Shown here: positions 4,239 through 25,431 of the stretch, piece after piece
How positions within the stretch are numbered: the stretch's first letter is position 1
Layout of the letters: every line of letters begins with the position of its first letter
NCBI RefSeq assembly: GCF_001192835.1
Contig: NZ_DF968183.1
Location: forward strand, 248,001 to 312,000
Length of the DNA stretch: 64,000 nt
Source of the DNA: Lentimicrobium saccharophilum
GTDB taxonomy: Bacteria; Bacteroidota; Bacteroidia; Bacteroidales; Lentimicrobiaceae
Reading direction: 5' to 3'
Made by a program: the position numbers and the translations under genes
Notes under the pieces: model-generated
Databases searched by the model: none
What the model saw: only the letters and a program-made list of their open reading frames with translations
What the model was told of the DNA's origin: nothing

Positions 4239-4268
4239 TTGTGAAAATAAAAAATTGTTTTACCTTTG
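4239..4268 (+). promoter_or_regulatory. Promoter of the tRNA-Leu pair
   Basis: TTG at 4239-4241, 19 bases, then TACCTTTG at 4261-4268. This is an exact fit to the Bacteroidota housekeeping promoter (TTG, N19-20, TAnnTTTG). The -7 element ends 11 bases before the first tRNA nucleotide, giving a very short leader. Confidence 0.85.
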
Positions 4269-4279
4269 CGCACTCAATT

Positions 4280-4363
4280 GCCCAGGTGGTGAAATTGGTA
4301 GACACGCCAGCTTGAGGGGCTGGTGTCCTTAAGGATGTGCAAGTTCGAGTCTTGTCCTGGGCA
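4280..4363 (+). tRNA. tRNA-Leu (anticodon GAG)
   Basis: An 84-nt class II tRNA. The acceptor arms gcccagg (4280-4286) and cctgggc (4356-4362) pair completely, with discriminator A at 4363. The anticodon arm is ccagc / ttgaggg / gctgg, giving anticodon GAG (reads CUC/CUU). A long variable arm (gtcc-tta-aggat) and the T-arm ttcgagt follow. CCA is not encoded. Confidence 0.95.
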
Positions 4364-4422
4364 CAAAAATCCGAGTAAGTTCGGTGGCAGTCGGCAGACT
4401 GCATTTTTTTGAGAATTATTAC

Positions 4423-4506
4423 GCCCGGATGGCGGAATTGGTAGACGCGCTAGTTTCAGGGACTAGTGTACGTACGTACGTGCAGGTTCGAGTCCTGTTC
4501 CGGGCA
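4423..4506 (+). tRNA. tRNA-Leu (anticodon CAG)
   Basis: An 84-nt class II tRNA 59 bases after the first tRNA-Leu and probably co-transcribed with it. The acceptor arms gcccgga (4423-4429) and tccgggc (4499-4505) pair, with discriminator A at 4506. The anticodon loop ttcaggg between ctagt and actag gives CAG (reads CUG). The variable arm is a run of tacg repeats and is self-complementary. CCA is not encoded. Confidence 0.95.
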
Positions 4507-4511
4507 CAGAT

Positions 4512-20116: not shown

Positions 20117-21709
20117 TTAATTTCGTATGACTACTTTGGTAACCCGGGAATCCGGCAATGAGAGCGTGAGAATAAATATACCTCTTTCATTGCCTGTTGT
20201 GCTGTTTATGTTGCAGTTCCATCTGTATGACTGTGCGCCCGGATAAATCACCGCTTCATGAACGAGGATGCCCCTTCCGTCAAAGATGCTTAAGGATACC
20301 GGAACAGGGTAAGTTCTGCCGAGGTCTATGCATAAAAGATCACTGAACGGATTGGGCCTGACATTAATGTCTGCAGAAACAATGTGAAGATCCGAACCGA
20401 GATCAATCTGGTACTCGTAGGCTCCCATGTCCGGCAGTATCCCGCTTATTCTCGGGTTTTCCGACAAGTCTTTATCAGGATAGTTTATCCATCCGGGATC
20501 AAACATCCCCTTGTTAATGCAGGGAGAGTTGCTTTGCAGTGAGTAGGGGTGAGGACCGTTATTCAGAAAGCCGGGTAATGAGTCGATGTTATTAATATAT
20601 GCGGAGTGGTAACCGATACCGCCGGTCCCTCCGAAGGCCTCTTTACCGCCTTGAACATTACAATGATAGAATTCGGGCGCCGAGAGAATATCCCAGATGT
20701 ATAACTGTGCACCTTCACCGGCATGGTTGCCGCAGATTATTGTGTTTATAATCACCGGTGCAGCGCTGTCGTTACAATACACCGCTCCGCCGTATGAAGA
20801 AGATTGGTTGTCAGTGATGGTGTTATGCAGCACCAGCGGGGATGCTTTGATAAAGGCAATGGCGCCGCCGAAAAACAGACAGGAGTTGTTCACAAACAGG
20901 TTTCCTTCCACCATCCTGTCAGGCGCTGACCTCAGGTAGCCCATTGCTCCGCCAAGTCCACTGAAATTTTCAAAGAATCTGTTCTTAGTAACCATTGCGT
21001 CAGTGTATTCGAGAGAGATAGCTCCGCCTATCCCGGTTGAAATATTGCCTGTAAATTCGCAATAGCTGATGTCCGGCCGGGAATGTCTGAAACAAACGGC
21101 GCCTCCGTATCCGTAGGGCGGAGCAGCCTGCCCGCAGACATTGCCCTGAAAAATGCTGTGGCTGATACTGATATCTCCAGATTCGGCAAAAATGGCGCCG
21201 CCCCAGTGATATGCATAATTATTTGTAAATGTGCAATTGGAAACAGAGATTTTTCCGAAATCTCTGATATTGAAAATGCCGCCCATTTTTTCAAGTGAAT
21301 CTCCGGTTGCCTTCCCATACTCAAACCGGCAGAAAAGAAAAACTGATGAATCCGCCAGAGGGTCGTTTCCGTTAAAATGAAAACCATCCCAACCTCCCCT
21401 TCCGTTTTCATGATTTGAGAAGCCTGCCGTATCAGCCACCGAGAAAATAACCGGACTTCCGGGCTCGCCAATGGCTGATATGCTGCCATTAACATCCAGT
21501 CTGAAATGCCCTGTTGCCAGAACCATTGTCCCGGCTTTAAATTTCAACTGTTCGCCGGTTGGTACTGTTACATTTCCAGCTATCAGCACGGTGTCAGCTT
21601 CCAATAACCCCGATTGTGTGCCCTGTATCAGTATAGTTTGTGAATGTCCCGGAAAATTGAAGTTTAAAAGTAAAATAAGCAACAGAAATACAATTAAAGG
21701 CTTTTTCAT
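20117..21709 (-). CDS. Secreted right-handed beta-helix protein with T9SS domain
   Basis: A 530-residue exported protein. After a signal peptide (MKKPLIVFLLLILLLNFNFPGHS) comes VTVPTGEQLKFKAGTMVLATGHFRLDVNGSI, a common entry strand of polymorphic beta-helix surface proteins. Repeated coils of the form F.NNSCLFFGGAIAFI, NNYAYHWGGAIFAES and NQSSSYGGAVYCND follow at about residues 150-315, with GGA at the turns. From about residue 445, NVRPNPFSDLLCIDLG ... GIFILTLSLPDSRVTKVVIRN is the T9SS sorting domain. Such helices bind or cleave polysaccharides or act as adhesins; no catalytic residues were recognised. Confidence 0.85.
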   Translation of the reverse strand: MKKPLIVFLLLILLLNFNFPGHSQTILIQGTQSGLLEADTVLIAGNVTVPTGEQLKFKAGTMVLATGHFRLDVNGSISAIGEPGSPVIFSVADTAGFSNHENGRGGWDGFHFNGNDPLADSSVFLFCRFEYGKATGDSLEKMGGIFNIRDFGKISVSNCTFTNNYAYHWGGAIFAESGDISISHSIFQGNVCGQAAPPYGYGGAVCFRHSRPDISYCEFTGNISTGIGGAISLEYTDAMVTKNRFFENFSGLGGAMGYLRSAPDRMVEGNLFVNNSCLFFGGAIAFIKASPLVLHNTITDNQSSSYGGAVYCNDSAAPVIINTIICGNHAGEGAQLYIWDILSAPEFYHCNVQGGKEAFGGTGGIGYHSAYINNIDSLPGFLNNGPHPYSLQSNSPCINKGMFDPGWINYPDKDLSENPRISGILPDMGAYEYQIDLGSDLHIVSADINVRPNPFSDLLCIDLGRTYPVPVSLSIFDGRGILVHEAVIYPGAQSYRWNCNINSTTGNERGIFILTLSLPDSRVTKVVIRN

Positions 21710-22082
21710 TGTCAGCTGTTTTTGGAATCAATCCTGCTCAAAACATTTAGTTTGGTTCTTTAAGACCAGGGCCGGTTGGCCGGATCCGGGCAAAGGTCTG
21801 AAAAAAAATGCCTGCATTAAACGTCAATTTTTAATCCACTGTTGTAAGCCATCGTGCATTATTGGATAAAGAAGAGAACAGGTTGCCAATCTTTAATAGA
21901 TTGATCTGTATTCTTAGTGTCAGATTTGCGACCCTGACATATTCCCGGCACCCCGGTTGGTCTGGTTCTATTACCCTATTAAAAATCTGGTTTTCAATAT
22001 GAATATGAATCCTTGGGTATATCAGGTTAAGCAGGTTGGTCCGGATAAGGATTATAAAAGTGAAAAAAGTGTACGATTTTGC
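21710..22082. other. Gene-free stretch upstream of the small RNA promoter
   Basis: I see no gene, repeat or convincing structure here. It holds the start region of the minus-strand beta-helix gene and leads into the promoter at 22083. Confidence 0.5.
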
Positions 22083-22112
22083 TTGATTTATGTGAAAAAT
22101 ATGCTATTTTTG
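22083..22112 (+). promoter_or_regulatory. Promoter of the candidate small RNA
   Basis: TTG at 22083-22085, 19 bases, then TATTTTTG at 22105-22112, a full match to TTG-N19-TAnnTTTG. The nearest protein start is almost 400 bases downstream, but an intrinsic terminator follows after only 110 bases. Confidence 0.75.
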
Positions 22113-22117
22113 TCTGT

Positions 22118-22246
22118 AATTCAGGTGGTTACGTAAATTCTTGCACAGTTTTTAACTGTAAAATAATTTTACATCAAACACCGGATCCTATGCTACCCCA
22201 AACCCCTAAAAGATAGCATTTAACGGATCTGTATCCGTCATTTTTG
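22118..22246 (+). ncRNA. Candidate structured small RNA
   Basis: About 125 nt between a consensus promoter and a terminator, with no reading frame. Three hairpins are visible in order: acagtt/aactgt (22145-22150 with 22154-22159), atgcta/tagcat enclosing a CCCCAAACCCC-rich loop (22190-22195 with 22214-22219), and the terminator stem acggat/atccgt (22223-22238). The cggat at 22182-22186 could instead pair with atccg of the terminator, so two folds are possible. A 6S-like or phylum-specific regulator is possible, or a leader of the radical SAM gene; I cannot assign a family. Confidence 0.6.
22223..22246 (+). terminator. Terminator of the candidate small RNA
   Basis: A stem acggat-ctgt-atccgt (22223-22238) followed by ca and five T (22241-22245). 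It lies about 130 bases after the promoter and far before the next start codon. The rest of the gap to 22510 holds nothing I recognise. Confidence 0.7.
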
Positions 22247-22510
22247 CTCATTGGTTATTGCCGGATGAATAAAAATTTCTTTTTGCGGGAATTTTTTTTA
22301 CTAATGCAATGATTTTTTAAATATTTGAATGTAAGGCATTTGGGGAAAACATGTTTTTATTAAGACAACAGGAATTACTACATAAACAGGCTTTTTGTAT
22401 CGAAAAGCGCTGCTATGTAAGTTACTTTTGATTCAAATATCAATAAATAATCGTGATCAGGCAGGGGTTAACCGGACAACCGGCTTGTCGAAATGAAAAG
22501 GTCATAATGC

Positions 22511-23464
22511 ATGAAACTAACTGACGCCTATTTTCCTTACAGCTTTCCTGCAGAATTGGCAGATTGTGTCTGTTGTCCCCGCGAATGTCATGCTGACCGA
22601 ACGGCAGGGCCCGGCGGATACTGTAAATCGGATGCTTTTCCCGGAGTCAGTTCAATATGCCTTCACAGAGGTGAAGAGCCGGTGATCGGAGGCGAACAGG
22701 GTATTTGTAATGTTTTCTTTGGAAGATGCAACCTTCAGTGTATTTATTGCCAGAACTGGCAGATCAGTAGCCGTAATGAAGCGATACAGATTGAATATCA
22801 GCGTATTGACAGCATCGTTCATGCTATATCAAAGTTGCTGGATGAAGGTTGCAGAGCAGTAGGATTTGTTTCTCCTTCCCATATGGTTCCACAGATGCTT
22901 GCCATCATCAACGCATTGAATGATTCAGGCAGAAAACCGGTAATTGTATACAACAGCAATGGATATGACAGGGTTGAAACTCTCAAAATGCTTGAAGGAA
23001 TTGTTGATGTGTATCTGCCTGATCTGAAATATATGGATTCACGCCTGGCACATGAATATTCAGATACCGGAAATTATGTTTCGGTTGCCCGGAAGGCGCT
23101 GAAGGAGATGTTCAGGCAAAAGGGAACAGCGCTGATTACCGATGATGCGGGTCAGGCTTTAAGCGGGTTGATTATCAGGCATCTGGTGCTTCCCGGTAAT
23201 ATTGAGAACAGCATGAATGTGCTCCGGTTTATCGCTGAAGAACTTTCTCCCGGAATTCATATATCATTAATGTCACAGTATTTTCCAATGCCTGCAGTTG
23301 CCGGCCATCCTTTACTTGGCAGAGCCCTTACCGAACTGGAATATAAGCTGGTTGCCGAAGAGATGGAAGCACTCGGGTTATTTAAGGGATGGATTCAGGA
23401 AGCAGGTAGTTCAGGTAGTTATCTCCCTGACTTTTGTTTTGATCATCCGTTTGAGAAATATTAA
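22511..23464 (+). CDS. Radical SAM protein, PflX/PFL-activase-like
   Basis: A 317-residue cytoplasmic Fe-S protein. FFGRCNLQCIYCQNWQIS holds the CxxxCxxC cluster at C73, C77 and C80, which binds the SAM-cleaving [4Fe-4S]. An N-terminal cysteine-rich part (C19, C21, C22, C26, C38) resembles the extra metal site of the COG1313 PflX group, and IVDVYLPDLKYMDSRLA with GLIIRHLVLPGNIENS belongs to the same group. Members activate glycyl-radical enzymes or modify unknown proteins; no glycyl-radical enzyme gene is nearby, so the target is unknown. It is followed after 17 bases by a sensor kinase gene. Confidence 0.85.
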   Translation: MKLTDAYFPYSFPAELADCVCCPRECHADRTAGPGGYCKSDAFPGVSSICLHRGEEPVIGGEQGICNVFFGRCNLQCIYCQNWQISSRNEAIQIEYQRIDSIVHAISKLLDEGCRAVGFVSPSHMVPQMLAIINALNDSGRKPVIVYNSNGYDRVETLKMLEGIVDVYLPDLKYMDSRLAHEYSDTGNYVSVARKALKEMFRQKGTALITDDAGQALSGLIIRHLVLPGNIENSMNVLRFIAEELSPGIHISLMSQYFPMPAVAGHPLLGRALTELEYKLVAEEMEALGLFKGWIQEAGSSGSYLPDFCFDHPFEKY

Positions 23465-23481
23465 CATATAATAACAGCGCC

Positions 23482-25431
23482 TTGCGACCTGACATAAATA
23501 CCGGAATAAAAAAGATGATGGGGTTACTCCTGCTGGCAGGATTGCTGACCTCATTTTCTCTGACCGGATTCGCAATGGCGGGGCAGGAATCTGACAGCCT
23601 GCGTATTGTGCTTGAAAAGGCGGAAGGTCCTGTTCAGCAGGCGGCAATCATAAAGCAACTTTCAAGGCTCGCCTTATCGGAAGGGGATTACCCGGTGGCC
23701 ATTGAATACCTGAACCGGGAGCTGGAATTAAGGGTAGTTACGGGTGATTCGGTTTCGTGGGCGAATGCGCATTATAACCTCGGTATGATATTCAGTATGA
23801 TCCGGAGCTTCGACAAGGCAATCCATCATAGTCTTATCGCACTGGAATACTTTGACAGGAGCCGGCTTTACAACGAAGTGGCCAATACCTGCATAAACCT
23901 GGGGTTTGTTTATAATGAAACCAGAAATCCTGATCTGGCATATTCTTATTACGAAAGGGCCTTGCACATATTTAATGAACTTTCCAGTAAGCAGGGGCTT
24001 GAAGCTTCTTATCTGAATCTTGGAATTCTCAGCGATAAAAGCATTGATCAGGGAAAGGAAAGGCAAAAGTTTGACGAAGCCCAGGGTGGCGTGAGAAAAG
24101 CCAACAATGCATCTCTGATTGTAATTTACACCAGCCTTGGCAAATTAAACCTGAATAAGAATGATTTGATTCAGGCGGAGAATTATCTCAAGCAGGCCCT
24201 CGACCTGGCAATTCAGATGGGCGATCAGCAATATGAAGCGGTTATTAAGGTGTCTCTGGCGTCGGTTTATTTTACTTCGGGAAGAAGGCCGGACGCATAC
24301 AGACTTGCCGAATCAGGGTTGGAACTGGCAAAGAGCCTTAAAATCAGGAATGTAATACTTGAGGCCTATGCCGAACTGGCAAAGATATCCATGGGATTGA
24401 ATCAGCCGGTGCTTGCCTATAGTTTTCTCGATCAGTACTCAAAACTTAAAGACAGTATTTATGATGAACAGCAATCCTATTTGCTGAGCCAGGCGCAGGC
24501 TAGATTTGAGGTAGGGCGCAAGGAGCTTGACAGTGAAAGACTGCTTCGCGAAAACTTAGAGCAGGCATTGAAACTGGAGCGGAACAAAAAGTCGAAGGTT
24601 GCCCTGATAGGTGTTGTAATATTTATTGTGATATTGCTGGCTTTCTTTTTTAAACGGTATTATTTTAAAACAAAAGCCGTTGATAATCTGGAAGATAAAA
24701 ACAGGCTGATTGAAACCCAGAAAGCGGAACTTGAACAATTGATTCAAACGAAAGACAGATTTTTATCTATTATTGCCCACGACCTCAAAAACCCTTTTAC
24801 TTCGCTGCTTGGGTTTGCGGATCTTGCTTACAATGAGTTTGATGATATTACTGATGCCGAAAAACGTTCCTATCTGGGTATTATCAGGCAGTCAAGCCAG
24901 CATATTTATTCATTGCTCGATAACCTGCTGACCTGGTCGAGGGCGCAATCCGGACGCATTGACTTTAAACCTGAGCCAGTTGATCTTTCCGAGATTGTGG
25001 AAACCTCTATTGATGTTGTCCGCAGCATGGCTGATAACAAGCAGATTTCGCTCTACACTGATTTTACTAAAGATGTGATTGTTAAGGCTGATAAAAACAT
25101 GCTTTTTACGGTGCTGAGAAATTTGCTGAGCAATGCCATTAAATTTACGCAGAACGGAGGATCTGTTACCGTGAGCTGTAATTGCAGCGGGGGGAAAGCC
25201 GTCGTGAGCGTAACAGATACGGGAATCGGAATGAATGAAGATGAGCTGTCACGGTTATTCAGGATAGATGGGAATCTGAAAACCTCAGGCACCAATAACG
25301 AAACCGGTACCGGCCTTGGGCTGATTCTCTGCCAGGAGTTTATGAATATTCATAAATCAAAGATTCAGGCCCGGAGCACGCCCGGGAAAGGCAGTACCTT
25401 CAGTTTTACCCTCGAGATAATTCCAAAATAA
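23482..25431 (+). CDS. TPR-containing sensor histidine kinase
   Basis: A 649-residue membrane histidine kinase. An N-terminal signal or anchor (GLLLLAGLLTSFSLTGFAMA) is followed by about six tetratricopeptide repeats (residues 40-330) outside the cytoplasm, one membrane segment (VALIGVVIFIVILLAFFF, about 371-389), a short coiled coil, HisKA with the H box SIIAHDLKNPFTSL (His433), and HATPase with N box LRNLLSNAIKFT, G1 VTDTGIGM and G2 GTGLGLILCQEF. Autophosphorylation and transfer to a regulator are expected, but no regulator gene is adjacent. The start is uncertain: TTG at 23482 gives a basic n-region, while ATG at 23515 removes 11 residues. It is probably co-transcribed with the radical SAM gene. 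Confidence 0.9.
   Translation: MRPDINTGIKKMMGLLLLAGLLTSFSLTGFAMAGQESDSLRIVLEKAEGPVQQAAIIKQLSRLALSEGDYPVAIEYLNRELELRVVTGDSVSWANAHYNLGMIFSMIRSFDKAIHHSLIALEYFDRSRLYNEVANTCINLGFVYNETRNPDLAYSYYERALHIFNELSSKQGLEASYLNLGILSDKSIDQGKERQKFDEAQGGVRKANNASLIVIYTSLGKLNLNKNDLIQAENYLKQALDLAIQMGDQQYEAVIKVSLASVYFTSGRRPDAYRLAESGLELAKSLKIRNVILEAYAELAKISMGLNQPVLAYSFLDQYSKLKDSIYDEQQSYLLSQAQARFEVGRKELDSERLLRENLEQALKLERNKKSKVALIGVVIFIVILLAFFFKRYYFKTKAVDNLEDKNRLIETQKAELEQLIQTKDRFLSIIAHDLKNPFTSLLGFADLAYNEFDDITDAEKRSYLGIIRQSSQHIYSLLDNLLTWSRAQSGRIDFKPEPVDLSEIVETSIDVVRSMADNKQISLYTDFTKDVIVKADKNMLFTVLRNLLSNAIKFTQNGGSVTVSCNCSGGKAVVSVTDTGIGMNEDELSRLFRIDGNLKTSGTNNETGTGLGLILCQEFMNIHKSKIQARSTPGKGSTFSFTLEIIPK

Follow-up and report, generated by a model that had tools for sequence, protein, structure and literature searches.

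What is made from a promoter that is followed within little more than a hundred bases by a terminator, with no gene in between? In the window (the whole 64,000-nucleotide stretch of Lentimicrobium saccharophilum DNA analysed here; coordinates are those of the window and refer to the plus strand unless stated otherwise) such an arrangement is found at 22083–22246. On one side lies a divergent gene for a surface-type protein with Chlam_PMP/POMP repeats and a choice-of-anchor Q domain (20117–21709, minus strand), and downstream lie the genes for a radical SAM protein (22511–23464) and, directly after it, a TPR sensor histidine kinase (23482–25431), which resembles Porphyromonas FimS with 244.6 bits, under the 600-bit cut-off. 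The first-pass annotation took the segment for an isolated small RNA unit and left three roles side by side: a trans-acting small RNA, a 6S-type RNA or a terminator/antiterminator leader for the radical SAM and kinase genes.

The promoter elements are confirmed, with TTG at 22083–22085, a 19-nt spacer and TATTTTTG at 22105–22112. The strict form TTG-N19-TATTTTTG has a single occurrence in the window, where chance would give 0.2; for one strand of the 801-bp intergenic gap the expectation is 0.0015. With spacing and box relaxed to TTG-N17-21-TAnnTTTG there is no enrichment (7 matches, 6.2 expected). The promoter had been called full-consensus, and its position, its N19 spacer and TATTTTTG bear this out, but the wording is slightly overstated, as the –33 box reads CTTG here and so has three of the four letters of the TTTG given for Bacteroides in the available text of PMC7366714. 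From the promoter geometry we infer that the transcript begins at about 22118, some 6 nt after the –7 box. Because one of the looser matches, at 4239, stands directly before the first tRNA-Leu gene, the TAnnTTTG-type promoter would seem to be the housekeeping type here. About 300 bases beyond the two tRNA-Leu genes of that region (4280–4364 and 4423–4507) there is also a Flavo-1 RNA (RF01705; 4814–4886, minus strand; 45.4 bits, cut-off 42).

At the other end of the unit an intrinsic-terminator-like hairpin with a T tract (22223–22245) reads ACGGAT-CTGT-ATCCGT followed by CATTTTTG and begins 110 nt after the –7 box; its stem is predicted at –5.3 kcal/mol with pair probabilities of 0.65–0.86. 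Both the sequence and the position agree with the clear terminator that had been described 110 bases on, but taken by itself it is at chance level, with 1 terminator-like site found and 0.8 expected. That no reading frame separates promoter and terminator holds up well: the plus-strand frames of at least 30 residues touching the unit are a 59-residue TTG frame ending at 22136 and a 45-residue TTG frame from 22079, in the promoter region, neither of them credible, and no minus-strand frame of at least 30 residues touches it. An eight-codon ATG frame noticed by eye in the C-loop hairpin (MLPQTPKR) was set aside, as its start codon is missing in the two more distant of the genomes with this loop. 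The unit has the anatomy of Bacteroidota intergenic small RNAs, namely a TAnnTTTG promoter, an intrinsic terminator and no ORF. Validated intergenic small RNAs of Bacteroides usually have a start site together with an intrinsic terminator, as did eight of the nine validated in PMC7366714.

Folding of 22118–22246 predicts three hairpins, one with a C-rich loop, as the annotation had noted. However, the fold is unexceptional against shuffled sequences (z –1.5, with 20 of 200 shuffles equally good) and the C-loop hairpin (22190–22219, loop CCCCAAACCCC at 22196–22206) is weak, with six pairs, an 18-nt loop and –2.7 kcal/mol. A possible closing stem, P1 (22119–22186), pairs 22119–22122 and 22124–22127 with 22179–22186; its eight pairs are retained across three genomes, one of them varying one-sidedly (UG/UA), and it is non-significant in the window lineage alone. 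Within it are a small hairpin, P2 (22146–22158, CAG with CTG), whose loop differs among relatives, and hairpin P3 (22157–22173), formed by the dyad TGTAAAATAATTTTACA. The segment 22182–22186 had been proposed to compete for the terminator stem, and this survives for one arm: GGATCC at 22183–22188, identical in letters in three close genomes, may pair with GGATCT at 22225–22230 in the terminator 5′ arm, with a probability of about 0.14, which makes it a minority state. Pairing with the 3′ arm was rejected, as forcing CGGAT onto ATCCG shifts the energy from –21.7 to –14.2 kcal/mol, a cost of 7.5, and its probability is 0.00.

No known RNA family was recognised in the first pass, and none is found by Rfam at the site, either at gathering score across the window or at E 10 across 21700–22520; a search of four relatives’ loci at E 1 gives nothing as well. 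The 6S-type reading is not supported. RF00013, which is positive in 5 of 14 controls, gives no score at the site to E 10 and none in the genome, and the predicted fold of 22118–22246 has unpaired ends and a 3′ terminator hairpin, without the closing stem or central bubble of a 6S RNA. The 6S-Flavo model (RF01685) also has no match at the site or in the genome, a silence shared by all 14 of its controls; it is by RF00013 and by the predicted fold that the unit is not of the 6S type.

How far the unit is conserved and what it travels with can be judged from relatives. By DNA search all 168 bases are kept in two of the 18 other genomes of the genus, at 90% in G004 and 86% in G013; in a search of 60 genomes, the matches listed beyond these two and the window’s own genome are shorter than 50 bases, with E values of 7e-4 or worse. 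In 30-bp bins of the three-way alignment, 16–43% of columns are identical across 21821–22060 and 57–97% from 22061 to the start of the radical SAM gene, so that conservation begins sharply at about 22061, at the edge of a conserved promoter region (22061–22112) holding the –33 TTG and the –7 TATTTTTG. The lowest bin of the conserved part, 22151–22180, has stable hairpin arms and varying loops. Conservation runs on past the terminator through a further long conserved hairpin (22253–22314) and through a box, GTTACTTTT, at 22421–22429. Paired positions are conserved in relatives, which the annotation had named as a check, with all eight P1 pairs kept and the terminator stem identical in the three genomes. 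Double-sided changes number 0 in 37 pairs, the three close genomes being too few to inform, and the five inner P3 pairs are invariant, so covariation gives P3 no proof. A separate conserved patch at 21791–21820 (24 of 30 columns), upstream of the divergent gene, is probably the promoter region of that gene.

The radical SAM gene is present in 17 of 19 genus genomes, and in all 17 loci the kinase gene comes next (tblastn). A TAnnTTTG box, which alone is readily met by chance in AT-rich DNA, can be picked in all 17 upstream regions, at 367–438 nt before the aligned gene start in 14 and at 195–216 nt in three, and a –33 TTG lies 17–21 nt before it in only 10 of them. More telling is the dyad: ten of these regions carry GTAAA-N5-TTTAC at 40–44 nt beyond the –7 box, in a module whose box is 367–435 nt before the aligned gene start, and the other seven lack it. 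The ten copies collected at the radical SAM locus made up the covariance model R1, and a second model, R2, was built against circularity from the seven sequences outside the trio of the window genome, G004 and G013. In the window genome R2 ranks the site first of all places, with 46.5 bits at 22099–22173 (the –7 box, start region and dyad hairpin) and an E value of 7.9e-5, approximate because of a short calibration; it also ranks the sites first in G004 (44.0 bits) and G013 (42.3 bits), where, as in the window genome, the next score is at most 28.2 bits, the value of the window genome itself. Because the leave-out model finds all three sites first, the window element and those of the distant lineages are homologous.

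The same searches show the promoter–hairpin module to be strictly linked to the radical SAM locus in relatives. With up to 150 candidates scored in each of the 19 genus genomes, R1 finds nothing new better than E 0.026; that match falls on the reverse strand of the G005 locus, and the next is G011:C55 at 0.038. With the same depth in nine genus genomes, R2 adds nothing under E 0.02, G011:C55 again coming closest (E 0.0226), and its best score in six other genus genomes is 33.7 bits. In a sample of 149 genomes of the order, the window’s own and two of the genus included, with up to 32 candidates scored in each, the best R1 match is L205 at E 0.0029, which we take as chance, since the 3 kb around it give no radical SAM match in tblastn; 11 other order genomes have R1 matches at E 0.026–0.084. 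When 43 of 64 loci of radical SAM relatives were scanned upstream (the 21 left out being mostly of lower identity), the dyad was found in five, apparently genus genomes already counted.

The 3′ part of the unit is less widely shared. The terminator itself is kept only in the trio. G009 has a terminator-like hairpin of its own, unrelated to this one and with a T tract, 114–129 nt after the box (110–125 in the window), and G017 has, by eye, a smaller one with a 4-pair stem at about the same distance. In G005 a terminator-like site with a poor T tail lies 217 nt after the box, and a strict scan of 14 regions turns up no site within 330 nt in nine of them. Thus a short transcript is likely to be made in some lineages and is unproven in others. 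The C-rich loop is common to five genomes, the trio and G014 and G016 (with CCCAAACCCC in both), out of 14 upstream regions read, and its stem arms are wholly divergent between lineages.

Does the dyad act as RNA or as DNA? In several distant lineages its flanks pair into an enclosing stem, the sequences of which are unrelated in each. We compared these stems with shuffled sequences in seven of the ten dyad-bearing sequences (G004, G013 and G014 being dropped as near-duplicates) and in four of the seven without a dyad, the smallest attainable p value being 1/401. The combined Fisher p for the seven dyad lineages is 9e-7, approximate since the lineages are related, against 0.013 for the other strand (lowest in G012), 0.34 for 35 mock positions and 0.32 for the four lineages without a dyad; singly, five of the seven are below 0.05, the window (0.52) and G018 (0.27) being the others. 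Folding energies of the first ~105 nt go the same way, with a mean z of –2.09 for the ten dyad sequences compared with –1.19 for their reverse complements and –0.39 upstream of the promoter, and with –0.18 for four no-dyad sequences (–1.26 upstream). This excess of enclosing stems and these lower fold energies in the dyad lineages favour a structured RNA in the dyad region. What counts against it is that the window lineage itself adds no significant stem, that the inner P3 pairs are invariant and that the opposite strand of the dyad regions also folds somewhat better than shuffled sequences. Overall there is good support for a genuine non-coding RNA unit that has been conserved.

A reading at the DNA level would make the element a regulated promoter in which the dyad GTAAA-N5-TTTAC, lying about 45 bp into the transcribed region, is the operator of a repressor or activator, and the hairpins are side effects. 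The nearly invariant half sites suit it, as does the weak excess of enclosing stems on the other strand, and across the 19 genus genomes TGTAAA-N5-TTTACA outnumbers its reversed control by 78 to 10, which hints that this form may be a transcription-factor site in the genus. The stem excess is nevertheless larger on the transcribed strand, the kept C-loop hairpin and the terminator are left unexplained, and eight other strict dyads in the window’s own genome, four of them inside ORFs of at least 100 residues, have no –7 box at a matching distance. We regard an operator as rather improbable, and for the same lack of a matching promoter at those eight sites the dyad was dropped as the mark of a regulon, although its looser form is enriched in the genus. 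The exact sequence TGTAAAATNATTTTACR has one site in the own genome. Elsewhere, the exact dyad TGTAAAATTATTTTACA ends one base before an ATG at L072 (G011:C55) and L071 (G003:C141), where the gene looks by eye like that of a secreted protein; neither genome has the dyad at its radical SAM locus. Very much less probable again is an ordinary spacer, with a promoter, a long 5′ UTR and a terminator-like hairpin arisen by chance. The single-sequence fold and the chance-level terminator count are what such a spacer would give, but it accounts poorly for the leave-out R2 match, the sharp boundary of conservation and the enclosing-stem test.

A stronger competitor, which we still consider unlikely, is an independent gene for a trans-acting small RNA of ~125–130 nt, with the C-rich loop as its seed and the adjacency to the radical SAM gene a matter of inherited order. 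Promoter and terminator do frame a short unit, CCCAAACCCC is retained in five genomes, and the radical SAM gene has a conserved box of its own. Of the 17 genus upstream regions, 15 carry this box, GTTACTTTT, at –80 to –123 relative to the aligned start of the gene. It probably belongs to a separate promoter for the radical SAM gene, so that the operon may be able to do without the upstream one. It is steadier than a normal –7 element and does not retain the final G of TAnnTTTG; by eye, several lineages have TTTTG or TTTG at 25 nt ahead of the TA, a wider spacing than the 19 nt of the upstream promoter, and perhaps the box is recognised by another sigma factor. Targets are where the trans-acting reading suffers: the loop complement GGGGTTTGGG is found at nine places in the own genome, one of them the site itself, against nine for the control, and at 35 against 30 in the five genomes together, with no clear enrichment. 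When six of the eight other own places were compared with 19 places in four relatives, three had a homologue, and two of these three (L170 and L180) are inside long reading frames. One place, L165 (C1:684839 in the own genome), is perfectly complementary to the loop over 13 nt, with an ATG about 40 nt further on; it was set aside, as no homologous place was found among those compared in the four relatives. The complete divergence of the stem arms between lineages and the presence of the loop in just 5 of the 14 regions read also speak against this reading. The trans-acting RNA first proposed keeps its own promoter and terminator, but no enriched target was found for its C-rich loop.

The reading we prefer, with a confidence that stops somewhat short of even, is that the segment is a Lentimicrobium-specific regulatory RNA unit, a cis-tied leader of the radical SAM–kinase operon whose transcripts mostly end at the terminator. 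A cis role is suggested because the module is linked to one operon, at a constant distance, and keeps the shape of its stem without the sequence; a separate short RNA is supported by the second promoter-like box and the terminator. The leader proposed in the first pass is thereby favoured through genomic linkage and the minority pairing of the 5′ arm, but loses the 3′-arm alternative. In the mechanism that we propose, the housekeeping-type promoter would start transcription at about 22118, and the first ~100 nt would form a hairpin with the core GUAAA-N5-UUUAC, seated in several lineages atop an enclosing stem. In the species group of the window the C-rich-loop hairpin and then the intrinsic terminator would follow, so that most transcripts would end near 22246 as an RNA of ~125–130 nt. 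Read-through past the terminator, or its failure to occur, would tune the amount of operon mRNA coming from the upstream promoter, with GGATCC at 22183–22188 serving as a minor antiterminator, and this output would add to that of the operon’s own promoter near 22421. The promoter and terminator anatomy, the homology, the linkage and the statistical excess of enclosing stems are observed; transcription, termination, cis action and a sensed signal are what we propose from them.

A bolder version, to which we give little credence, sees here a new, fast-diverging class of structured RNA confined to Lentimicrobium. It would be a promoter-coupled leader in which the GUAAA-N5-UUUAC cap is fixed in sequence and in its distance from the start site, while each lineage has remade the stem out of unrelated sequence, and which would work as a protein- or ligand-bound switch of the radical SAM enzyme and the TPR histidine kinase, also releasing a short C-loop RNA. 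The locus adds a candidate RNA family, for which a homology model holds across the genus, and links it to a conserved radical SAM–kinase pair. If the stem is indeed rebuilt per lineage under a fixed cap, the family would be a tractable example of a regulatory RNA in which shape and position, rather than sequence, are conserved, a kind of conservation that is missed by an ordinary DNA search.

Among known systems, transcription-attenuation leaders combine a promoter, a structured leader and a terminator ahead of an operon. The window unit is like them in this layout and in the minority alternative pairing of the terminator 5′ arm, but the alternative pairing is weak (0.14), the operon has a promoter-like box of its own, and the gap from terminator to gene is ~265 nt. 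With 6S RNAs (RF00013, RF01685) it shares the nature of a small RNA unit with its own promoter, but neither an RF00013 score nor the predicted end-closing stem and central bubble. SnoA of Bacteroides thetaiotaomicron (PMC13370916, a preprint) is likewise a short, fast-diverging Bacteroidales RNA locus and lies beside the genes that it controls; it is tied to hcpR/hcp, and the main text of that preprint contains neither ‘radical SAM’ nor ‘Lentimicrobi’. Our searches of the open-licence literature gave no small-RNA study of Lentimicrobium. In anatomy the unit resembles Bacteroides intergenic small RNAs such as GibS (PMC7366714), with a TAnnTTTG-type promoter, a length of ~130–145 nt and hairpins followed by an intrinsic terminator; it differs in having no Rfam match and in that strong copies were found before one operon only. 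Put modestly, the unit would be one more gene-control element of a well-known type, set apart by an unusual mode of conservation.
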